A stretch of DNA of 64,000 nt from Nematopogon swammerdamellus (Eukaryota; Arthropoda; Insecta; Lepidoptera; Adelidae). A program made the translations under genes and the position numbers. Location of the stretch: positions 21,731,349 to 21,795,348 of the forward strand of contig OX336339.1 of assembly GCA_946902875.1 (NCBI GenBank), written 5' to 3'. The notes under the pieces are model-generated. The model did no database searches. It had not been told where the DNA came from and saw only the letters and a list, made by a program, of their open reading frames with translations. This document shows, piece by piece, positions 3,424 to 61,578 of this stretch. The number at the start of each line of letters is the position of its first letter. The first letter of the stretch is position 1.

Positions 3424-3507
3424 ATGTCGTTAACGATGACGCAAAAGCTCAGCTCGTGTGAACCGGACGACCGTTTCATGACCGTGGAGAGTCGACCGGC
3501 GAGGACG
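3424..3507 (+). CDS. PAQR3: PAQR3-like, exon 1 (start codon, N-terminal cytosolic segment)
   Basis: The ATG at 3424 has ACC before it and opens a 28-codon frame, MSLTMTQKLSSCEPDDRF followed by MTVESRPART, ending at a strong donor ACG|GTGAGT (3508). Phase 0 at the end fits exon 2. There is no similarity to a named motif; the PAQR3 N terminus is poorly conserved, so assignment rests on position, phase, splice signal and the TATA-like element upstream. A different or additional first exon (for example near the CpG-rich stretch 6.7-7.05 kb) cannot be excluded. Confidence 0.6.
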
Positions 3508-17245: not shown

Positions 17246-17472
17246 AAACACATCGACTGCCACGAGAAGGAATACTCACCCAGCAGCAAACTGCTCGAGA
17301 ACAAACTCGGCGATAAATTGGAGGAGAACAATAATCTTAGTAAGAAAGATATCGAGTACTTGAACTACAGACAACTGCTCAAGTTCGAGGACGCGCCGGA
17401 GTACATCAAACACAATCCCTACATCCGAGATGGCTATAGGAAATATCTGCCCACCAATCTTTGCTGGGAAAG
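17246..17472 (+). CDS. PAQR3: PAQR3-like, exon 2 (cytosolic domain up to the pre-TM1 motif)
   Basis: Acceptor TTGTCTTCAG|AAA at 17245/17246 and donor GAAAG|GTGAGA at 17472/17473. 227 bp: phase 0 in, phase 2 out. It encodes a charged segment (KHIDCHEKEYSPSSKLLENK, then KLEENNNLSKKDIEYLNYR) followed by the conserved PAQR entry LLKFEDAPEYIKHNPYIRDG and YRKYLPTNLCWE, the counterpart of the human PAQR3 NPYITDGYRAYLPSRLC region. The last AG joins the first T of exon 3 to make a serine codon. Confidence 0.92.
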
Positions 17473-18013: not shown

Positions 18014-18170
18014 TATATTCTGGTGGACGAACGAGACTCTCAACATATGGACTCACCTGTTCGGCTTCTTCCTGGTCGCTGGGCTCACTATCAACGATCT
18101 GTTCCTCATCAACATACACGCCACGTTCACGGACAAGATTGTCGTTGCGCTGCTGCTCTTCTGTTTTCAG
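18014..18170 (+). CDS. PAQR3: PAQR3-like, exon 3 (TM1 and most of TM2)
   Basis: Acceptor CGCGTTCAG|T (18013/18014), donor TTTCAG|GTAGAT (18170/18171). 157 bp, phase 2 in and phase 0 out. It encodes (S)IFWWTNETLNIWTHLFGF, FLVAGLTINDLFLINIHA and TFTDKIVVALLLFCFQ: the family signature N-E-x-x-N-h-W-T/S-H entering TM1, then the start of TM2. The frame joins directly to ICMALSALYH in exon 4. Confidence 0.93.
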
Positions 18171-20545: not shown

Positions 20546-20925
20546 AAGAGAAGAAAATATACTATGACACCAATACGATTTGTCTGTATGTGTTTCTCTC
20601 TCTTTCACGCGTTATCTAGGTCATTGTTATTAACTTTTACATAGGCATTTCTGACTTTCCGACTTCGCGAATAGACGCATAATATCATGCGAGCATGCCT
20701 TGGGAGCATGCTAGCGAAGCCGCGGGAAACAGTTATACCTACAACTACAACAACTTAGTAAAGATAACCAACTATTATAATCAAATCAAATCAGAGCTTT
20801 ATCGCTCCATATAAAAACTGTAAAAAAAGGTGGACTAATTGTCTAAGGCAATTTCATTCAGTCAACCTTTGCTACTGGATCAATTTGAAAAGAGTATTAG
20901 CAAATATTAGAGATTAAAACAAGAT

Positions 20926-21570
20926 TTGAAGCTTAAACAATTAAACAGAGTCAATGTGATAAGGGATCTAGGAGTTTTAGTTGATGAGAAACTTCTCTTT
21001 GATGCACACGTTACTACTGCAGCAAAGAAAGCAAGTAAAGCTCTGGGTTTCATTTTACGAATATCGAAAGAATTCAAAAATCCTTTGGCACTAAAAACAC
21101 TGTACTGCGCATATGTGCGCAGTCACCTAGAATATGGTTCTCAAGTGTGGAACCCAAGATATGAAATACACAAGCTTCGACTAGAGCGCATACAAAAGAG
21201 ATTTTTGAGACATATTAACTACCGTACAGGCGTGTCATTCCCAGGGATGGATAGCGCGTGCAAGTATCATCAACTACTTCCCCTGACATACAGACGCGAA
21301 ATGTTGGATGTTACTTTCCTGCTTAAATTGGCTAATGGATCAATCGACTGCCCCGAAGTCTTAGGATTCCTCGACTTGCAAGTACCATCATACACAACCA
21401 GGAGTCGCACCATCATCCATCTACCCAGGGTCCAAACTTCCTATAGACAGAACTCATTCTTCTGGCGAGCTGGATACCTACTCAATTCAATTTGTGATGA
21501 TGTTGATCTGTTTTGCACTAGTCCCTTTTCATTCAAATCAAAATACATAAAAACCTTTATGGAATGTTAA
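20926..21570 (+). pseudogene. Reverse transcriptase C-terminal fragment
   Basis: Intact reading frame but only the RT C terminus. The first methionine is simply the first ATG in the truncated copy. No start context or upstream palm motif (F/YADD) is present. Confidence 0.75.
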
Positions 21571-25977: not shown

Positions 25978-26130
25978 ATCTGCATGGCGCTATCGGCATT
26001 GTACCACACGTTCTCGTGCCGCTCCGAGGACGACTACAACCACTTCCTCATGTACGATCTGTTCGGCATCGCGCTCTCGCTTCTCGCCATATACACCTCG
26101 GGGGTCTACTACGCCTTCTGGTGTCACAGC
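25978..26130 (+). CDS. PAQR3: PAQR3-like, exon 4 (end of TM2, histidine motif, TM3)
   Basis: Acceptor ATTTCCGCAG|ATC and donor CACAGC|GTGAGT. 153 bp, phase 0-0. It encodes ICMALSALYHTFSCRSEDDY and NHFLMYDLFGIALSLLAIY, then TSGVYYAFWCHS. The S-A-L-Y-H histidine is one of three zinc ligands in PAQR structures. YDLFGI and SGVYYAF match the TM3 region of PAQR3. Confidence 0.93.
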
Positions 26131-27720: not shown

Positions 27721-28404
27721 AAAATTTTTTACCCAAGCGCCGCTAAAGAAGTTTTCACTTCAAAAATATAAATGAAACATTAAGTTTATCTGTGAATTAT
27801 CACGAGTGCGACTTTAAAGTTTTAAATTATATAATTATATTACTTCCGCAAAAATCGCACTCCGGTTATTAGGTATTTAACAAGGGTAATAGTACTACTT
27901 TTTATTGATATATGAATAGACACCCAGAAGTACCCAGAAGTATAACAAAAACCTTAGAATTCCTTTTAAATAAATGAAAATTTAACACAATAAACCTTCT
28001 GTAATCATTGTACTGCCAAATTGTTTTAATGTATTGCAATTTAATTAAAAATAACTAATACACATTCGTAAATACCTGCTTTGCAACTGTCCATCTTTAT
28101 GTTTTTTTTTCCACACTCAACAAACTAAGATAGGCCCATTAAACTCTTAACACTCTGATAGCAAAACGATAAACATTACGTGCGCAGGCACCGACATCAA
28201 TATTGCACACTAAGTGGCGGGCGGGATAAGAGGTGCAGGGTGGCGGTAAGTGTCAAATGTCGTTGTTTGGTTTGTGGAGAATAGGTTATGTGATACAATG
28301 CTGAATAGGAACAGTTTGATGAAATTGAATATTGGCCAGTTAAAATAGACAAATACCCGTATGTGCAACGGTTCGAAAATTTGAAGAAATATTTCGGCGG
28401 CCCG

Positions 28405-28470
28405 GTAGCGAATTGGTAACGCGCTGGCAGCTCAAGCCGGAGTTCCAGGTTCGATTCCTGGTCGGGACGT
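28405..28470 (+). other. tRNA-like segment (not a functional tRNA)
   Basis: T arm CCAGG-TTCGATT-CCTGG, D-stem GCG/CGC and an anticodon stem CTGGC/GCCGG can form, but the anticodon loop AGCTCAA lacks U33 and the acceptor stem has a mismatch. It sits in the right arm of the 26828-28525 structure and is best seen as a tRNA-derived SINE head or tRNA pseudogene. Confidence 0.5.
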
Positions 28471-31672: not shown

Positions 31673-31988
31673 TACCGTGTGGGGCCGGTACTTTAAAAGA
31701 ATAGCCCCACTGCATCTCTCCCCGTGTATGTCTTAAAAGGCGACTAAGGGATATGACTCTCTTCTTATATTACTAGGTGGTAGGGTTTAACCCGCCCGGG
31801 TTGGTACCACCGCGCTGAATGAAAGGTCGGTCGAAACGGCTATGTAAATAGTTTGTGTTTTCCGTCCAGTTCAGTGTAGCAGGCACGACCGAAGGGAAGC
31901 ACTGACGTGGCACCAAGTTCACCCGGTGTTATGGGCTGACATCACGGATGTTGTAGGTGATGTAGCCAACCGTGTCAGTTTAAATAAA
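31673..31988 (+). mobile_element. SINE family 1 body with module A, no 5S-like head
   Basis: TACCGTGTGGGGCCGGTACT, then directly TACTAGGTGGTAGGGTTTAA and the usual body to poly(A). Confidence 0.8.
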
Positions 31989-32019
31989 AAAAAAAACAAA
32001 AAACCAAAAAAAAACCTTG

Positions 32020-32225: not shown

Positions 32226-33045
32226 TATTAATAAATCATTACAAAATCCGGCTCGAAGGACCAAATTTATTAATTTTTATAATATCTTTAGGAATGTTTA
32301 TAATTTAGGAATTATATCCTAACAGATCTGGAGCTGTATTTCTAACAGCTTGCTATTCAAGTACTTATAATGATTAGGTATACTATAATTCTTAAGAAAA
32401 GCCTGTCAAGGGCGAGCGAGATTTGTGCACTACAATTTTCGCATCAACCAAATATCGTACATCGTCATTCACGACATTTCACGACATTGTCCAAAATAAT
32501 GCTAAGAAGCAAGACCATTTCCGCACGTTGGTGCTACAGTTTTTGATCTATTCTACGTCTAGCTGGCCGTACGTAGGTAGCTATTTTGACGTGAATACGT
32601 CTTTAAATTTGCTTCCATAGTGTGAGCTAATCCAGAAAACTGATGATAACAAAATCGGGGGATACGGCTTGGTGTTGTAGCTTCATATCTATCATCTACA
32701 TCCAAAATTTAATTACACCACTCGATAGGTAAAGGATCAAAGAATACGTACACGTATTCACGTAAAACACACGGCCGTGTCGACGACACAGCCACACCCA
32801 GATTTTTGTTGCACGCATAGCGTGTGCGCCATCAAATGAAACCAAAATCTAAATAAGTATTTATAGCACTTGAACATTTTTTTTTGCAAAAGGTACAGCT
32901 AAACACCGTTGGCGTTCTCCCCTAACCAACCTTTGGGTTATTATGAAAAGGTGTGGATTGCCCGCAATACTCTCGGTTTTCCTCACAGAGATATAATATA
33001 CGGGGATACGTCTATGGTTTTGCTAATTTTTTTATTTTTTTTTTT
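32226..33045. other. Intron 4 sequence without recognised element
   Basis: AT-rich, no splice-flanked frame seen; only short chance frames. Confidence 0.4.
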
Positions 33046-33362
33046 TATGGAAACTGACACGGGTGGCTACATCACCTACAACATCCGTGATGTCAGCCCA
33101 TAACACCGGATGAACTTGGTGCCACGTCAGCGCTTCCCTTCGGTCGTGCCGGCTACACTGAACTGGACGGAAAACACGAACTATTTACATAGCCGTTTCG
33201 ACCGACCTTTCATTCAGTGCGGTGGTACCAACCCGGGCGGGTTAAACCCTACCACCTAGCAATATAAGAAGGGAGTCATATCCCTTAGTCGCCTTTTACG
33301 ACATACACGGGAAGAGATGCAGTGGGGCTATTCTTTTAAAGTACCGGCCCCACACGGTACAA
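33046..33362 (-). mobile_element. SINE family 1 body with module A
   Basis: Reverse copy: TTTTTATGGAAACTGACAC at the left and GTACCGGCCCCACACGGTAC at the right. It ends 31 bp before the exon 5 acceptor of the PAQR3-like gene. Confidence 0.8.
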
Positions 33363-33393: not shown

Positions 33394-33582
33394 GAGCTAC
33401 GCGTGTTCTACATGTGCAGCGTGACGTTGATCTTCATCATCGCGATGGTGATGCAGGCGCCCTCGCTCTGCGTCCCGTACGCAGTCAAGACCCTCGTGTT
33501 CATCGGCTGGGCCGCGTACGGCGTACTGCCGACGCTGCACTGGACCTATACGATGGGCGGCTTTGACAACCCCATGGTGCAG
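33394..33582 (+). CDS. PAQR3: PAQR3-like, exon 5 (TM4 and TM5)
   Basis: Acceptor AATGTTGCAG|GAG and donor GTGCAG|GTGGGT. 189 bp, phase 0-0. It encodes ELRVFYMCSVTLIFIIAMVM, QAPSLCVPYAVKTLVFIGWA and AYGVLPTLHWTYTMGGFDNP, ending MVQ. YGVLPTLHW matches the YGVIPTLHW stretch of PAQR3. A SINE lies just upstream (33046-33362) and another in the following intron (33797-34169). Confidence 0.93.
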
Positions 33583-33796
33583 GTGGGTCATCCTCTTCTT
33601 CTTCTTAGGGACCGTTTACATACCAAGCAACAGCCAAGTTCGCGGCATTGTGAAAAAATCCACGCGGTCGGTCTCTGTGTAACCCTGTGGAATCCCCCCC
33701 CCCCCCCCCTGCCTTTTATGTCCACGTGGTATTTGAACGGTCCCTTACGAGTGCCCAATTATGGCGAATAGTCAGCAGGTGCTTTTATAAGTTTGG

Positions 33797-34169
33797 CAGC
33801 CTCGGTAGCTCAGTAGTGCGGTCTGTCGGCTGTTGTTAAGCAACCCTAAGCGCGGTCAGTAATTGGATGGGTGACCGCTCGACCGTTAGAGACTGACGTG
33901 GTTCGAATTCCACGTAAAACTGTAGGTTCATTCCCTTCTTACCTTACTAGGTGGTAGGGTTTATCCTGCCCGGGTTGGTACCGCCGCACTGAATGAAACG
34001 TCGGTCGAAACGGCTATGTAAGTAGTTCGTGTTTTCCGTCCAGTTCAGTGCAGCCGACATGAAATGAAGAGAAGCACTGACATTGGCTCCTAGTTCACCC
34101 GGTGTTATGGGCTGACATCACGAATGTTGTAGGTGATGTTGCCAACCGTGTCAGTTTCTATAAAAAAAA
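33797..34169 (+). mobile_element. SINE family 1 with complete 5S-like head
   Basis: GCAGCCTCGGTAGCTCAGTA, GTTAAGCAACCCTAAGCGCG, GTCAGTAATTGGATGGGTGA + CCGC, GTGGTTCGAATTCCACGT, then body and poly(A). Lies in intron 5 of the PAQR3-like gene. Confidence 0.85.
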
Positions 34170-34499
34170 AACTAACCACCCCAGTTCTCTCGTGTTACCT
34201 GTTCCAAACGTTAAAGCAGGTGTAGGTATGCAAGTAAATGTTTCCGTCAGAAAAACTCATTGATATTATAATATACCTGCAGTGCAGCAGTGCAATACGT
34301 ATTTCATTATGTGTCCGAAATATTCAAGTTTCCTTTTGCAGTACCTAGAGTATCAGTAGCCCATGGGTAAGGAGACATCAGCTAAGAATGAAAGAGCTGG
34401 CTTTAGAGTTCGCAGCAAATACAGATATAGGTAAAATAGTCCCAATGTGGACTTGATTACAGTACTGAATCTATTACTCCTCTGAACTTAAATAACTTA

Positions 34500-34634: not shown

Positions 34635-34739
34635 TTATACCAGCTAGCTAACCTCTTGTACAAAAGGGCTGGATCCAAAGCCGGGAATGCATCAACGATA
34701 TTTCTAAACAGTGAAGTGTAAAATTAAATTTTATTGCAG

Positions 34740-34808
34740 CTGCTGTTCCCGCGAGTGATCGGCATGTACTGCATCAGCGGAACCGCCTTCTTCGTCTACT
34801 TCTTCAAG
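34740..34808 (+). CDS. PAQR3: PAQR3-like, TM6 exon copy 1
   Basis: First copy of the array. Its acceptor lies in unique intron sequence (AATTTTATTGCAG). The frame follows ...NPMVQ of exon 5 and precedes IPERWF of exon 7, matching human ...IVQ-DFAPRVIVMY...ISK-VPERYF. 69 bp, phase 0-0, LLFPRVIGMYCISGTAFFVY then FFK, the majority sequence of the array. It is the most canonical copy and is well placed to be the ancestral exon. Confidence 0.85.
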
Positions 34809-36234
34809 GTCGGTAACATGTCAGCAGACCCTCTTCTTCGCCATTGCATTGTAGCTGCTGTTCCCGCGAGTGATTGGCATGTACTGCATCAGCGGAACCG
34901 CCTTCTTGGTCTACTTCTTCAAGGTCGGTAACATGTCAGCAGACCCTCTTCTTCGCCATTGCATTGTAGCTGCTGTTCTCGCGAGTGATCGGCATGTACT
35001 GCATCAGCGGAACCGCCTTCTTCGTCTACTTCTTCAAGGTCGGTAACATGTCAGCAGACCCTCTTCTTCGCCATTGCATTGTAGCTGCTGTTCCCGCGAG
35101 TGATTGGCATGTACTGCATCAGCGGAACCGCCTTCTTCGTCTACTTCTTCAAGGTCGGTAACATGTCAGCAGACCCTCTTGTTCGCCATTGCATTGTTGC
35201 TGCTGTTCCCGCGAGTGATCGGCATGTACTGCATCAGCGGAACCGCCTTCTTCGTCTACTTCTTCAAGGTCGGTAACATGTCAGCAGACCCTCTTCTTCG
35301 CCATTGCATTGTAGCTGCTGTTCCCGCGAGTGATTGGCATGTACTGCATCAGCGGCACCGACTTCTTCGTCTACTTCTTCAAGGTCGGTAACATGTCAGC
35401 AGACCCTCTTCTTCGCCATTGCATTGTAGCTGCTGTTCCCGCGAGTGATCGGCATGTACTGCATCAGCGGAACCGCCTTCTTCGTCTACTTCTTCAAGGT
35501 CGGTAACATGTCAGCAGACCCTCTTCTTCGCCATTGCATTGTAGCTGCTGTTCCCGCGAGTGATTGGCATGTACTGCATCAGCGGAACCGCCTTCTTGGT
35601 CTACTTCTTCAAGGTCGGTAACATGTCAGCAGACCCTCTTCTTCGCCATTGCATTGTAGCTGCTGTTCCCGCGAGTGATCGGCATGTACTGCATCAGCGG
35701 AACCGCCTTCTTCGTCTACTTCTTCAAGGTCGGTAACATGTCAGCAGACCCTCTTCTTCGCCATTGCATTGTAGCTGCTGTTCCCGCGAGTGATCGGCAT
35801 GTACTGCATCAGCGGAACCGCCTTCTTCGTCTACTTCTTCAAGGTCGGTAACATGTCAGCAGACCCTCTTCTTCGCCATTGCATTGTAGCTGCTGTTCCC
35901 GCGAGTGATTGGCATGTACTGCATCAGCGGCACCGACTTCTTCGTCTACTTCTTCAAGGTCGGTAAGATGTCAGCCGACCCTCTTGTTCGCCATTGCATT
36001 GCAGCTGCTGTTCCCGCGAGTGATCGGCAGGTACTGCATCAGCGGAACCGCCTTCTTCGTCTACTTCTTCAAGGTCGGTAACATGTCAGCAGACCCTCTT
36101 GTTCGCCATTGCGTTGCAGCTGCTGTTCCCACGAGTGATCGGCATGTACTGCATCAGCGGAACCACCTTCTTCGTCTACTTCTTCAAGGTCGGTAACATG
36201 TCACCAGATCCTCTTGTTCACTATTTAATTGCAG

Positions 36235-36294
36235 CTGCTGTTCCCTCGAGTGATTGACATGTACTGCATCAGCAACACCGTCTCTTTCTTCAAG
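36235..36294 (+). CDS. PAQR3: TM6 exon copy 14, 60-bp variant
   Basis: 20 codons, LLFPRVIDMYCISNTVSFFK, three codons shorter than the other copies but still in frame. Its upstream intron also differs (CACTATTTAATTGCAG). Copy 24 (37376-37435) has the same deletion and the same intron variant, so the two share an origin. A 20-residue TM6 would be short for a membrane span. Confidence 0.6.
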
Positions 36295-37375
36295 GTCGGT
36301 AACATGTCAGCAGACCCTCTTGTTCGCCATTGCGTTGCAGCTGCTGTTCCCGCGAGTGATCGGCAGGTACTGCATCAGCGGAACCGCCTTCTTCGTCTAC
36401 TTCTTCAAGGTCGGTAACATGTCAGCAGACCCTCTTCTTCGCCATTGCATTGCAGCTGCTGTTCCCGCGAGTGATCGGCAGGTACTGCATCAGCGGAACC
36501 GCCTGCTTCGTCTACTTCTTCAAGCTCGGTAATATGTCAGCAGACCCTCTTGTTCGCCATTGCGTTGCAGCTGCTGTTCCCGCGAGTGATCGGCAGTTAC
36601 TGCATCAGCGGAACCGCCTTCTTTGTCTATTTCTTCAAGGTTGGTAACATGTCAGCAGACCCTCTTGTTCGCCATTGCATTGCAGCTGCTGTTTCCTCGA
36701 GTGATCGGCATGTACTGCATCAGCGGCACCGCCTTCTTCGTCTACTTCTTCAAGGTCGGTAACATGTCAGCAGACCCTCTTGTTCGCCATTGCATTGCAG
36801 CTGCTGTTCCCGCGAGTGATCGGCAGGTACTGCATCAGCGGAACCGCCTGCTTCGTCTACTTCTTCAAGGTCGGTAACATGTCAGCAGACCCTCTTGTTC
36901 GCCATTGCATTGCAGCTGCTGTTTCCTCGAGTGATCGGCATGTACTGCATCAGCGGCACCGCCTTCTTCGTCTACTTCTTCAAGGTCGGTAACATGTCAG
37001 CAGACCCTCTTGTTCGCCATTGCATTGCAGCTGCTGTTTCCTCGAGTGATCGGCATGTACTGCATCAGCGGCACCGCCTTCTTCGTCTACTTCTTCAAGG
37101 TCGGTAACATGTCAGCAGACCCTCTTGTTCGCCATTGCGTTGCAGCTGCTGTTCCCGCGAGTGATCGGCAGTTACTGCATCAGCGGAACCGCCTTCTTTG
37201 TCTACTTCTTCAAGGTTGGTAACATGTCAGCAGACCCTCTTGGTCGCCATTGCATTGCAGCTGCTGTTTCCTCGAATGATCGGCATGTACTGCATCAGCG
37301 GCACCGCCTTCTTCGTCTACTTCTTCAAGGTCGGTAACATGTGAGCAGATCCTCTTGTTCACTATTTAATTGCAG

Positions 37376-37435
37376 CTGCTGTTCCCTCGAGTGATTGACA
37401 TGTACTGCATCAGCAACACCGTCTCTTTCTTCAAG
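37376..37435 (+). CDS. PAQR3: TM6 exon copy 24, 60-bp variant
   Basis: Same 20-codon form as copy 14, ten units upstream. Copies 25-31 after it carry the ISDTAFF or IRDTAFF version (copies 25-30) or ISGTAFF (copy 31), so copy 24 marks a boundary between sub-blocks of the array. Confidence 0.6.
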
Positions 37436-38171
37436 GTCGGTAACATGTCAGCAGACCCTCTTGTTCGCCATTGCATTGCAGCTGCTGTTCCCGCGAGTGA
37501 TTGACATGTACTGCATCAGCGACACGGCCTTCTTCGTCTACTTCTTCAAGGTCGGTAACATGTCAGCAGACCCTCTTGTTCGCCATTGCATTGCAGCTGC
37601 TGTTCCCGCGAGTGATTGACATGTACTGCATCAGCGACACGGCCTTCTTCGTCTACTTCTTCAAGGTCGGTAACATGTCAGCAGACCCTCTTGTTCGCCA
37701 TTGCATTGCAGCTGCTGTTCCCGCGAGTGATCGGCATGTACTGCATCAGCGACACGGCCTTCTTCGTCTACTTCTTCAAGGTCGGTAACATGTCAGCAGA
37801 CCCTCTTGTTCGCCATTGCATTGCAGCTGCTGTTCCCGCGAGTGATCGGCATGTACTGCATCAGCGACACGGCCTTCTTCGTCTACTTCTTCAAGGTCGG
37901 TAACATGTCACCAGACCCTCTTGTTCGCCATTGCATTGCAGCTGCTGTTCCCGCGAGTGATCGGCATGTACTGCATCAGCGACACGGCCTTCTTCGTCTA
38001 CTTCTTCAAGGTCGGTAACATGTCAGCAGACCCTCTTGTTCGCCATTGCATTGCAGCTGCTGTTCCCGCGAGTGATCGGCATGTACTGCATCAGAGACAC
38101 AGCCTTCTTCGTCTACTTCTTCAAGGTCGGTAACATGTCAGCAGACCCTCTTGTTCGCCATTGCATTGCAG

Positions 38172-38240
38172 CTGCTGTTCCCACGAGTGATCGGCATGTA
38201 CTGCATCAGCGGCACCGCCTTCTTCGTCTACTTCGTCAAG
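38172..38240 (+). CDS. PAQR3: PAQR3-like, TM6 exon copy 31 (last copy)
   Basis: Last copy; 69 bp, phase 0-0, ISGTAFFVYFVK ending (the only FVK). Its donor AAG|GTCGGT leads into unique intron 6. The array homology stops about 16 bp into that intron, just after the AACATGTCAG stretch. It is the copy closest to exon 7 and so a plausible default partner. Confidence 0.8.
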
Positions 38241-38425
38241 GTCGGTAACATGTCAGTCGATTCTATCTTGTTCGCTTCAACAACACGTAGATAGTTTAGG
38301 ACAGATATGTATTCTTACTTATTTCTCTGTACTAGGCTGAAGGTTCTGACGGTGGAGATAGTTAGGTATAACTCTTTCGTTCACACCATTGGATAAAAAT
38401 CAAATCAAAATCGAAAAACATTCAA

Positions 38426-38940: not shown

Positions 38941-39105
38941 ATCCCGGAGCGTTGGTTCGCAGGCAGAGTGGACTACGTGGGGCACTCCCACCAGTGGTGG
39001 CACGTGTTCGTGATGGCCGCGTTCTACTACTGGCACAACTCGGGCATGCTCTACGTGCAGTATCGCATGAACCACGGCTGCGCTAACACTATGCGCATCT
39101 TTTAG
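38941..39105 (+). CDS. PAQR3: PAQR3-like, last exon (TM7, HxxxH, stop)
   Basis: Acceptor GCTGCACGCAG|ATC; phase 0 in. 54 codons plus TAG at 39103-39105. It encodes IPERWFAGRVDYVGHSHQWW, then HVFVMAAFYYWHNSGMLYVQ and YRMNHGCANTMRIF. H-x3-H in HSHQWWH supplies the two TM7-side zinc ligands. The MxxQYR tail resembles the VMQYRH end of human PAQR3. A SINE (38426-38873) ends about 70 bp before the acceptor. Confidence 0.94.
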   Translation: MPERWFAGRVDYVGHSHQWWHVFVMAAFYYWHNSGMLYVQYRMNHGCANTMRIF

Positions 39106-39343: not shown

Positions 39344-39738
39344 GTCAGCCTCGATAGCTCAGTGGTGCAGACAGTCAACTGTCGCTTTTGAATATTAAGC
39401 AACGCTGGGTGCGGTCAGTTCTTGGACGGGTGACCGCTGACCGTTGGAGGCTGACCGAGGTTCGGATTCCTCGTAAAACTGTAGGTCCCTTCCCTCCTAA
39501 TCTTACTTGGTGGTAGGGTTTAACCCGCCCGGGTTGGTACCACCGCACTGAATGAAACGTCGGTCAAAACGGCTATGTAAATAGTTTGTGTTTTCCGGCC
39601 AGTTAAGTGTAGCCGGCACGATCAAAGGGGGAAGCACGAACATGGCACCTAATTCACCCGGTGTTATGGGCTGACATCACGGACGTTGTAGGTGATGCAG
39701 CCAACCGTGTCAGTTTCCATAAAAAAAAAATAAAAAAA
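39344..39738 (+). mobile_element. SINE family 1 with complete 5S-like head
   Basis: GTCAGCCTCGATAGCTCAGT, TTAAGCAACGCTGGGTGCGG, TTCTTGGACGGGTGACCGC, GAGGTTCGGATTCCTCGT, body, poly(A). A decayed second body follows at 39920-40110. Confidence 0.85.
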
Positions 39739-41512: not shown

Positions 41513-43143
41513 GTTAAGTAGCAACTACTTATTTTACTTTTAAATTATATTGTTATTATTAAACTTGTGTATTTATTCGTGTAATATACCTACCTCTGAG
41601 GCACGTGTGCATGTTTACCTTGCGTGGGCGCTAATATTTCTACTTCAATCAATCTCATATTCCACTTGATTCATGAACTCGTGTATCCGCTTCGACTAAG
41701 CAATTACATAATAAAGTGATTATAGGGGATACAAGTTTAGTCCTTCCTTCATTGTATTTTGGAATATTTTATCGACACCAATTTACACTACCTCCAAGAA
41801 ATACAATTCTAGCTCTGTGGATAAATTTTTTTTTTGTTCTTTTTATCCTTTTTAAATATTTAATAGGATACATAAGTGTGAGCATTGGGAACATTTTTCA
41901 TACAAAAAAAAACTTTATTTCGAGCGACAGGAAAGCCATCTAGCGTTAAATAGCAAAAACACGTATTAAAATAATATGTAGTTTTGGCACAGGAATGTGA
42001 TTTCACATGCTGGCGTGTCACCACACCACACACATCACACACACACACTAGACTGACAGATTACTTTTTGTTTGGTTTGTTTGTCCGGTTTGTTTGGCTG
42101 GTTTGAATGCTTTGGTATCCACGCATCAAACAAAACCCTCTATCTCTGCAGTCTTGTTAGTAACACCACCGGAATGTGATTCTGATTTATGTGCATCCCG
42201 TTCTACTTATCGGGCCAGAAAGAGACACAACTACAAAATCTCGAAAACTATTCGCAAACTAAAACATACTTCCGTTAATTTTAGTTTTACTATTGCTTCA
42301 CAGATGGCGCTGTCAGATAAAATTTCAAATATCATCGTGGCTCTTTGCCAAGAGATGTCAGTAATCTTCAGCGCCCTCTTTTATGTAAATGTAAAACGAA
42401 TGCAGTGTTTAGTACTCATAATTTGAAATAGATGGCAAGCCTGCCGCCGAAAGGAACTAGAAAACTGAAAGAGGTTCCGAAAGTTGTGATGTGACTGAAT
42501 CGCTAGTAAATAATTACAATATATAGGTACTCTTTGCTGAATCGTTGCAATGGACATTTACAATTAATGGACGACGATCGCGCCAATACTTAATCAAATG
42601 GTCCGATAGTGCTAATAAACGTTCATATGAATGGAAATGCTTTTATCCCGATCAATCAGACCAGAAATTCAACATTTTTACAATAATGAGACTATAATTT
42701 CTATCGTTGGGTATTTATTAGTTTGGAGTTAGGAATGTTTTATCATCACATGCATTTCATTATATTCCATTAGATCCAGCAACTCTTTGAAATGGTTTTA
42801 GGATATTATTATATATCATCACTCTGTCTACTTGGGGTACTGAGCAGTGGCTCTAATTGTGAGAGTACGATACAAATGTGTCTTACTTTGTCCAGCAACT
42901 CTTTGAAATGGTTTTAGGATATTATTATATATCATCACTCTGTCTACTTGGGGTACTGAGCAGTGGCTCTAATTGTGAGAGTACGATACAAATGTGACTT
43001 ACTTTGTCCTTTCCAAATTTCATGCCCGCGGTACCGCGGGCAAAAGTTAGTTACTTATATAAGTACCTTTCATACATAGGGAAGATATAAAATATTTAGG
43101 TAGGTATGTATGTATTATTTTCAGTAATAAATAACTATTGCAG
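41513..43143. other. Intergenic, no gene seen apart from the duplication at 42775-43008
   Basis: (CA)n near 42025-42050. The + frame 42094-42426 (110 codons, MAGLNALVSTHQTKPSISAV...) shows no family match and no splice support. Confidence 0.35.
42775..43008. repeat. 116-bp tandem duplication
   Basis: TCCAGCAACTCTTTGAAATG starts at 42775 and again at 42891; the two units are almost identical to the TTACTTTGTCC ends (one T/A difference seen). Confidence 0.85.
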
Positions 43144-49420: not shown

Positions 49421-49565
49421 GTATATATATTGTTATCTTGAGTCTGAAATGAGGAAATAGGAATTAAATATAAAAATAATAAAGTTTAATTTCAATGTAA
49501 ATTATAACCTTCGTTCTTTGTTGATTGTTAGTTGTTGGAGTTTTTTTGCCCTTAATAGTAATAAT

Positions 49566-50927
49566 AATATCGTGAACTCCGGCGGCATACAGTTGTCGGA
49601 GTCCATGAATGTTCGAGCTCTCTCCGAAGACGAAACCTATAAATATCTGGGAATATCGGAGGCTCTCAACATACGGGATACGGACATGAAACAATCAGTT
49701 AAGGAAAAGTTTTTTCACCGTCTTACAAAAGTGCTAAATAGCCTTTTGTCAGGCGGCAATAAAATTCGTGCCTATAACGGTTGGGTCATGCCTGTGCTCG
49801 TATATACCTTCGGTATTCTCAGATGGACTCAGACCGAATTGGACTCGCTGGACAGAAAGGTCAGGACGCTGATGACGAAATCCCGTATGCACCACCCACG
49901 ATCATCGGTCATGAGGTTGTATATCCCGCGGAAGTGTGGGGGTCGAGGTATGTTAAATGCCAAGAACCTGCACAACCGCGAGGTATGCAATCTCCGTCAG
50001 TACTTTTTGGAAAAGACTGATGTTTGTGAGATGCACCGCGATGTCGTCACCAGCGATAAAGGTCTTACCCCGCTGAGCATGGGAAAAGAGAACTGGCGGA
50101 AGCCGGTTGTACTGAGCACTGAGGACCGCATGGAAGTATGGAAAGGCAAGGAGCTGCACGGTAGGTACTTCCGGTCTCTCACGGGACCGGATGTAGACCA
50201 ACTTGCTTCCGTGCACTGGCTACGCTTCGGGGACCTCTTCGGGGAAACCGAGGGTTTTGTCTTTGCAATACAAGATGAGGTTGTCAAGACGAACAACTAT
50301 AGGAAACACATAATGAAGGACGGCACCATTGACATCTGCCGCGCCTGCCACCAACCTGGCGAGTCCCTCAGACATGTAATTTCCGGTTGTTCGCAGCTTG
50401 CCAACACCGAGTATCTGCATAGACACAACCTAGTAGCCAGGATTATCCACCAGCAACTTGCCTTAAAGTTCAACCTTGTGGGTACCGAGGTGCCTTACTA
50501 TAAGTACAATCCACCGCCAGTTCTCGAGAACGGTCATGTCACACTCTACTGGGACCGGTCCATTATTACAGATAGGACTATTCTTGCGAATAGACCTGAT
50601 ATTGTGATAGTGGACCGGGAGGCGAGGCGTGCAACGCTCGTCGATATCGCCGTGCCGCACGATGGTAACCTCGTCAGTAAGGAAGCAGAGAAGATGCTGA
50701 AGTATCTGGATCTGCAGCACGAGGTTACCAAAATGTGGCCCGTCGACTCGACGATCGTTGTGCCCATAGTCGTATCAGCGCATGGGCTGATAGCGAAGAG
50801 CCTCGATGACCACCTTAAGAGGCTCTCGCTGAGTGGTTGGGTCAAGGGCCAGATCCAGAAGGCAGCCCTGCTCGACACTGCACGCATCGTCCGGAGGTTC
50901 CTCTCTTTGGGACCCGACCATCGGTAG
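49566..50927 (+). CDS. Retrotransposon polyprotein fragment: RT thumb, CCHC knuckle, restriction-like endonuclease
   Basis: Element-derived frame starting at NSGGIQLSESMNVRALSEDE. The upstream 16 codons back to the first ATG (49518) are flank-derived and not part of the element. There is no promoter or plausible start, so it is best read as an uninterrupted 5'-truncated copy. CCHC spacing is C-x2-C-x8-H-x4-C around residues 275-290 of the frame. The RLE has RPD...D catalytic-type residues. Confidence 0.8.
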   Translation, partial: NIVNSGGIQLSESMNVRALSEDETYKYLGISEALNIRDTDMKQSVKEKFFHRLTKVLNSLLSGGNKIRAYNGWVMPVLVYTFGILRWTQTELDSLDRKVRTLMTKSRMHHPRSSVMRLYIPRKCGGRGMLNAKNLHNREVCNLRQYFLEKTDVCEMHRDVVTSDKGLTPLSMGKENWRKPVVLSTEDRMEVWKGKELHGRYFRSLTGPDVDQLASVHWLRFGDLFGETEGFVFAIQDEVVKTNNYRKHIMKDGTIDICRACHQPGESLRHVISGCSQLANTEYLHRHNLVARIIHQQLALKFNLVGTEVPYYKYNPPPVLENGHVTLYWDRSIITDRTILANRPDIVIVDREARRATLVDIAVPHDGNLVSKEAEKMLKYLDLQHEVTKMWPVDSTIVVPIVVSAHGLIAKSLDDHLKRLSLSGWVKGQIQKAALLDTARIVRRFLSLGPDHR

Positions 50928-60890: not shown

Positions 60891-61578
60891 TACAGTACGC
60901 GACGGTAAATAATGCGCGTCGGGCTTTGGAGAGAGACAGTCCGGTTGTAGAGCTTTGTCCCTGTCGCACAGAGACCGCTCTGTAACCGGACAGTCTATCA
61001 CTTTGGAGAGAGACAGTCCGGTTGTAGAGCTTCGTCCCTGTCGCACAGAGACCGCTCTGTAACCGGACAGTCTATCACTTTGGAGAGAGACAGTCCGGTT
61101 GTAGAGCGTCGTCCCTGTCGCACAGAGACCGCTCTGTAACCGGACAGTCTATCACTTTGGAGAGAGACAGTCCGGTTGTAGAGCTTCGTCCCTGTCGCAC
61201 AGAGACCGCTCTGTAACCGGACAGTCTATCACTTTGGAGAGAGACAGTCCGGTTGTAGAGCTTCGTCCCTGTCGCACAGAGACCGCTCTGTAACCGGACA
61301 GTCTATCACTTTGGAGAGAGACAGTCCGGTTGTAGAGCTTCGTCCCTGTCGCACAGAGACCGCTCTGTAACCGGACAGTCTATCACTTTGGAGAGAGACA
61401 GTCCGGTTGTAGAGCTTCGTCCCTGTCGCACAGAGACCGCTCTGTAACCGGACAGTCTATCACTTTGGAGAGAGACAGTCCGGTTGTAGAGCGTCGTCCC
61501 TGTCGCACAGAGACCGCTCTGTAACCGGACAGTCTATCACCAAAGCCCGACGCGCATTATTTACCGCCGCGTACTGTA
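60891..61578. mobile_element. TIR element filled with eight 77-bp hairpin repeats
   Basis: Ends TACAGTACGCGACGGTAAAT ... and ATTTACCGCCGCGTACTGTA are inverted, extended inward by AATGCGCGTCGGGCTTTGG / CCAAAGCCCGACGCGCATT. Between them the unit starting CTTTGGAGAGAGACAGTCC repeats at 60924, 61001, 61078, 61155, 61232, 61309, 61386 and 61463. Each unit is itself a hairpin: GACAGTCCGGTTGTAGAGC pairs with GCTCTGTAACCGGACAGTC. Units differ by single bases only (GCTTTGTCC / GCTTCGTCC / GCGTCGTCC). Confidence 0.85.

Follow-up and report, generated by a model that had tools for sequence, protein, structure and literature searches.

The window, by which we mean the whole 64,000-nucleotide stretch of Nematopogon swammerdamellus DNA analysed here, contains a seven-exon lepidopteran PAQR3 gene on the + strand, the coding part of which spans 3424-39105. 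Coding exon 1 (3424..3507) begins with the start ATG, ends in phase 0 and is followed by a GT donor; it was recognised from the sequence and by tblastn with the N-termini of relatives (E 0.002). Exon 2 (17246..17472), which has AG/GT borders and is open in the spliced model, was found together with its neighbouring exons on contig C7 by a protein search of the species' own genome. The same search and the spliced model gave exon 3 (18014..18170), which encodes TM1 and the start of TM2 as assigned from an orthologue model, exon 4 (25978..26130; the rest of TM2, and TM3), exon 5 (33394..33582; TM4-TM5, with its donor GT at 33583) and exon 7 (38941..39105; TM7 and the C-terminus, stop included). 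Exon 6 is not single: 31 copies of it lie in tandem between exons 5 and 7. When the first copy was used as exon 6, the spliced model was open over 347 aa with AG/GT borders, and any 69-bp copy fits between exons 5 and 7 with the frame kept.

The piece composed of exon 5, copy 1 and exon 7 matches HlyIII (PF03006) with E 5e-21 and 75.8 bits against a cut-off of 26.2. The nearest relatives come from insects and bear the name "progestin and adipoQ receptor family member 3", those of Lepidoptera showing 74-78% identity; 234 relatives were found, and the 120 of them that were listed were used for comparison. In a tree of 21 rows, for which 20 of the 120 relatives were taken, the protein falls within Lepidoptera (sister group support 99/96, caddisfly outside), next to the other sampled Lepidoptera (Galleria, butterflies and P0004) and outside their group. 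The tree does not include the Phthorimaea operculella protein (P0001), which was set aside on account of its repeated exon. A protein search of the 699-Mb genome (39 contigs) detected no second PAQR3, the distant PAQR-like matches elsewhere in it being on C23 (32% identity) and C12 (35%). The array is therefore the only source of TM6 for PAQR3 in this genome, and for the gene to function at least one of the copies has to be usable.

The assignment of the array exon to TM6 was made on an AlphaFold2 model of the Vanessa cardui PAQR3 orthologue (68 sequences, mean pLDDT 82.3). The sixth transmembrane helix of the model comprises residues 262-287, and the equivalent of the array exon comprises residues 266-288, so that, as judged from this model, the exon is the one encoding TM6. 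The seven-helix AdipoR-like fold is thus a feature seen in the orthologue model rather than in the window protein itself: the model superposes on AdipoR1 (6ks0) with a TM-score of 0.73 by query and 0.87 by target (E 7.5e-16). By sequence, the 3' part of PAQR3 matches the AdipoR structures with E 3e-12 for AdipoR2. AdipoR1/2 (PAQR1/2) thus share their fold with the orthologue model, and we know of no exon array in either of them.

TRF detected a single array, spanning 34733-38256, with a period of 115, 30.8 copies, 94% matches and a score of 6075; the copy table and alignment resolve it into the 31 exon copies at 34740..38240 on the + strand. The unit of 115 bp is composed of a 69-bp exon and a 46-bp spacer, repeated head to tail; the exon is 69 bp long in 29 of the 31 copies and 60 bp in copies 14 and 24, while all 30 spacers between array exons are 46 bp. 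Such an array exceeds chance. Every copy is open in phase 0-0, with no stop and no frameshift. A sequence-only reading of this DNA had described 31 open phase 0-0 copies of a PAQR3 TM6 exon, two of them 60 bp long, placed between a TM4-TM5 exon ending at 33582 and a TM7 exon starting at 38941. The TRF output and copy table bear out the count, lengths, phase and openness, the exon numbering (5, array, 7) was right, and the PAQR3 and TM6 identities agree with the domain match, the tree and the orthologue model. The residue variants it listed, M/R/S at position 9, G/D at 8 and 14, A/D/T at 16, F/C and F/L, are likewise all present. Its statement that the copies have splice signals holds for 29 of the 31, in which both splice dinucleotides are kept, and fails for copy 5 (35200..35268), where the acceptor AG is replaced by TG, and for copy 16 (36456..36524), where the donor GT is replaced by CT.

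The 31 copies fall into 17 different exon sequences encoding 14 different peptides, and the commonest peptide, LLFPRVIGMYCISGTAFFVYFFK, is encoded by nine copies; taken as whole units, the first 30 include 22 distinct ones, and the mean divergence between copies is about 5.4% per site. Copy 1 (34740..34808) is the sole copy preceded by the native upstream intron and has the commonest exon sequence, which in the alignment is identical in copies 1, 5, 7, 9 and 10. Copies 14 (36235..36294) and 24 (37376..37435) have the same 60-bp exon, which carries D8 and, through an in-frame loss of 9 bp, is without the part holding the invariant F17 and Y20. G14D occurs in every one of copies 25-30 (37482..38125), and the last copy, 31 (38172..38240), carries F22V, after which the native downstream intron begins. 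Further substitutions are P4S in copy 3, V6M in copy 23 and S13R in copy 30. The acceptor reads TAG in copies 2-4 and 6-11, and CAG in copies 1 and 12-31.

Origin of the repeat unit

Besides the exon, the repeat unit takes in intron sequence from both sides, about 33 bp from downstream and about 12 bp from upstream. The spacer begins like the native downstream intron (its first 33 bp aligned) and closes like the last part of the native upstream intron; the latter match is clearest in front of copies 14 and 24, where it covers 12 bp with a single mismatch. This make-up fits an ordinary tandem duplication of the exon together with flanking pieces of intron. Units differ from their immediate neighbours at 4.3 positions on average and from units 11-15 places away at 7.1-7.6, a pattern that we read as local expansion and homogenisation. 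Together, the regular unit, the composition of the spacer and the likeness of neighbours speak for the more sober of the two readings offered earlier, that of a young minisatellite which captured a functional exon.

One other locus with unit sequence was found, at C7:8010122-8010193, 13.8 Mb from the array and 92% identical to the unit over 72 bp; because the search scored the best candidates only, this count is a lower bound. The fragment (L009 4923-4994) is closest to the array units that end in the G14D group, the best at 95.8%. Since it holds spacer sequence, it would represent moved genomic DNA rather than copied mRNA. It carries an already diverged version of the unit and, with the divergence of about 5.4% per site within the array, makes the word "young" only partly apt. 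The wider locus (L009 4717-4994, on C7 near 8.010 Mb) holds this moved fragment, made up of the spacer end and roughly 56 bp of exon sequence that carries G14D, beside a long foldback sequence. The spacer part of the fragment is interrupted by an insertion that starts with CAGAGGCGG, ends with CCGCCACTG and is flanked by the 8-bp repeat CATTGCAG; from this resemblance, we presume it to be a hAT-type element.

Constraint and variation among the copies

For the substitution counts we used the 29 copies of 69 bp, leaving out copies 14 and 24 (60 bp), and the 30 spacers, leaving out the native intron after copy 31; minor states were taken as derived when base changes were inferred. The exons contain 21 inferred changes, 12 nonsynonymous and nine synonymous. 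When 21 changes were placed at random, no stop arose in 43-57% of the simulations (transition biases 1-4). The openness of all copies is thus no more than chance gives.

The nonsynonymous count was slightly low (P 0.03-0.12, depending on the transition bias), and piN/piS was 0.23 when weighted by copies and 0.28 when calculated pairwise (simulated P 0.004-0.017). Diversity was highest at synonymous sites (0.136), intermediate in spacers (0.055) and lowest at nonsynonymous sites (0.032). The nonsynonymous and spacer change counts did not differ significantly (P 0.13), and the comparison of nonsynonymous with synonymous plus spacer changes was borderline (P 0.046); the numbers of copies carrying nonsynonymous and spacer changes showed no difference (P 0.94). 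Although the events are few, the low piN/piS suggests some constraint across the copies, more than is predicted by a model in which a single copy is used, and such constraint would mean that use may not be limited to a single copy. As for the splice sites, two of the 17 spacer changes fell on the four splice-dinucleotide positions, where 1.5 were expected; these dinucleotides have changed about as often as the other spacer bases.

We compared the variant residues with TM6 of the 120 listed relatives, in which A16, F17 and Y20 are invariant and M9, P4, V6 and G14 are present in 117, 117, 113 and 108 proteins, respectively. Ten of the array's 12 amino-acid changes lead to residues absent from all 120; the other two lead to the residue of P4S, present in one relative, and that of F18L, present in 60. 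Eight of the 12 are at positions conserved in at least 90% of the relatives, against 41% expected of random changes (P 0.07 for eight or more), and 14 of the 31 copies have Asp or Arg within the helix (positions 6-22). To us, the pattern of variants looks like relaxed constraint rather than a tuned set of helices.

Splicing of the array and its interpretation

We consider it probable that the array is an exon-spanning minisatellite in which the good copies can stand in for one another and one of them enters each functional mRNA, a reading that we base on the sequence features described above. It extends a known kind, the whole-exon coding VNTR, here with 31 copies in a moth PAQR3. According to this explanation, a segment containing the full 69-bp TM6 exon and flanking pieces of intron would have been duplicated head to tail, after which unequal exchange or slippage, accompanied by local homogenisation, would have raised the number of copies to 31. 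Because each unit has its own acceptor and donor and its exon consists of whole codons, any single intact copy should yield a normal seven-helix PAQR3. The functional mRNA would join one copy, in all likelihood a copy free of mutations, and the remaining copies would be tolerated as redundant exons; the conservation in relatives suggests that most variant copies have suffered damage and are not receptor variants favoured by selection. A simple scan for branch motifs and pyrimidines did not point to copy 1 as the favoured one, its acceptor being not obviously better: it has no yTnAy and 8/17 pyrimidines, compared with 11-12 in the unit copies checked. Retention of a spacer would shift the frame and then lead to a stop.

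With a complete micro-exon present 31 times in a single-copy conserved gene, the array amounts to a natural experiment on how splice sites are chosen when the competitors are nearly identical, and it can show how a gene stays working while an essential exon multiplies. It may also illustrate how a mutually exclusive exon array starts out, ahead of any divergence or RNA structure.

A refinement of the same explanation supposes that the majority of copies are used: many would be spliced, one per mRNA and roughly at random, most of them yielding an identical receptor, while selection weakly purges bad copies. A piN/piS of about 0.25, the maintenance of both splice dinucleotides in 29 of 31 copies and of the frame in all of them would be accounted for by such redundant use. 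On the other hand, 14 of 31 copies have charged residues inside the helix, and the splice dinucleotides are conserved no better than other spacer bases, a test made weak by the few events. We regard this refinement as unlikely, though it deserves consideration.

The other reading offered earlier was a Dscam-like bank, in which regulated, mutually exclusive splicing of the 31 copies would produce receptors differing meaningfully in TM6. The presence of 14 distinct peptides, and of homologous exons of the same phase (0-0) between constant exons, is in line with it. The Dscam1 exon 4, 6, 9 and 17 clusters and other mutually exclusive clusters are, as here, tandem homologous exons of the same phase; their copies are diverged and old, and the choice among them is tied to competing RNA structures (PMC6071210, PMC9013439). 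In such arrays, several selectors often vie for a single docking site, and they can originate by tandem duplication (PMC6071210). In the moth, by contrast, the copies are about 95% alike and separated by 46-bp spacers, the variants look damaged, and we found no competing structure: selector/docking pairing of the consensus spacer with the two flanking introns was equalled or exceeded by 21/40 and 18/40 shuffles, and a duplex of the exon with the downstream intron by 29/40. The duplex of the exon with the upstream intron, which 2/40 shuffles equalled or exceeded, is a weak signal, and the local RNA fold of two units had an ordinary energy (z 0.18 against shuffles). A competing selector/docking structure is, however, not universal among mutually exclusive arrays.

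The length of the spacer bears on the same question. Short spacing is one of the ways in which mutually exclusive exons are known to be kept from splicing to their neighbours (PMC7969005), and the 46-bp spacer may act in this way. Yet 46 bp does not itself forbid joining: Bombyx introns backed by full-length cDNA go down to 34 bp in Table 3 of PMC3755909, and the spacer is therefore no strict bar to the joining of neighbours. Considered by itself, the proposal that the array is in use, with each mRNA receiving a single TM6 exon out of as many as 31 and the spacers hindering neighbour joins, appears very doubtful. If it were true, each cell would mix PAQR3 with up to 14 TM6 helices, some of them with Asp or Arg, and a minisatellite would have made a bank of transmembrane helices. 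The regulated, Dscam-like form seems to us highly improbable: the changes affect near-invariant TM6 positions and put Asp or Arg into the helix, no docking pairing exceeds shuffles, the splice-site changes look neutral, adjacent copies are often identical, and a second TM6 occurs in none of the 120 listed relatives. The piN/piS of about 0.25 points the other way.

It is similarly improbable that the array is real and its count of 31 is an assembly error. Near-identical neighbours can be miscounted, but the 22 distinct units among the first 30 stand in ordered local groups, the genome is in 39 contigs with the array inside one of 26.7 Mb, and a separate fragment of the unit is present 13.8 Mb away. 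Also highly improbable is the inclusion of several non-adjacent copies per mRNA to give proteins with extra helices: the frame would be kept with any number of copies (69 and 60 bp) and introns between non-adjacent copies would measure at least 152 bp, but an even copy number would flip the C-terminal helix in the membrane, no multi-TM6 protein occurs among the 120 listed relatives of 234, and a query of all 31 copies joined had no match among the 7998 scored candidates sharing most words with it.

The minisatellite explanation has its closest counterpart in the kringle IV-2 VNTR of human LPA, a whole-exon coding VNTR with a 5.6 kb unit present in 1-40 units (PMC11462820). Like that repeat, the moth array has a tandem unit of exon and intron in many near-identical copies within a coding gene, with the frame kept. 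In LPA, the kringle IV-2 copies are all retained in the mRNA and make the secreted repeat protein longer. The moth unit differs in being 115 bp long with one 69-bp exon, and inclusion of more than one would add membrane helices. In open-access PMC, where absence says little, we found no paper with both PAQR3 and Lepidoptera and nothing relevant on exon-containing minisatellites or VNTRs, and PAQR was absent among the matches listed there for exon arrays.

Among the 120 listed relatives, internal repeats of at least 10 residues were found only in the Phthorimaea operculella PAQR3 NE865_07620 (P0001), where a piece of the TM5 exon is present three times (residues 230-330) and TM6 is single. Another exon of PAQR3 may thus be tandemly repeated in that species, as read from a gene model of uncertain reliability, and this suggests that this region of PAQR3 may be prone to such repeats in Lepidoptera.

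Surroundings of the array

The Rfam and tRNA scans of the 64-kb window detected nothing beyond a tRNA-Glu (CTC)-like sequence at 28398-28470, within a PAQR3 intron (ARAGORN; Rfam RF00005, 43 bits), which could represent either a genuine tRNA gene or a SINE head; neither a match nor a relative came out of the phage and viral-contig searches. Dispersed elements abound in this region. One repeat of this sort, about 150 bp long, occurs around the array at 31839-31994, 33038-33193, 34013-34173 and 39572-39730, and also twice in L009, and long open frames at 20911-21570 and 49461-50927 resemble, by eye, the remains of retroelement reverse transcriptases. Two further tandem repeats were seen downstream of the gene. 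At 60924-61540, TRF found eight copies of a 77-bp repeat that are 99% alike, and this repeat looks much younger than the PAQR3 array. At 42775-43009, about 3.5 kb past the end of PAQR3, a 116-bp unit is present twice with 99% likeness; it is similar to the array unit in length and differs from it in sequence.
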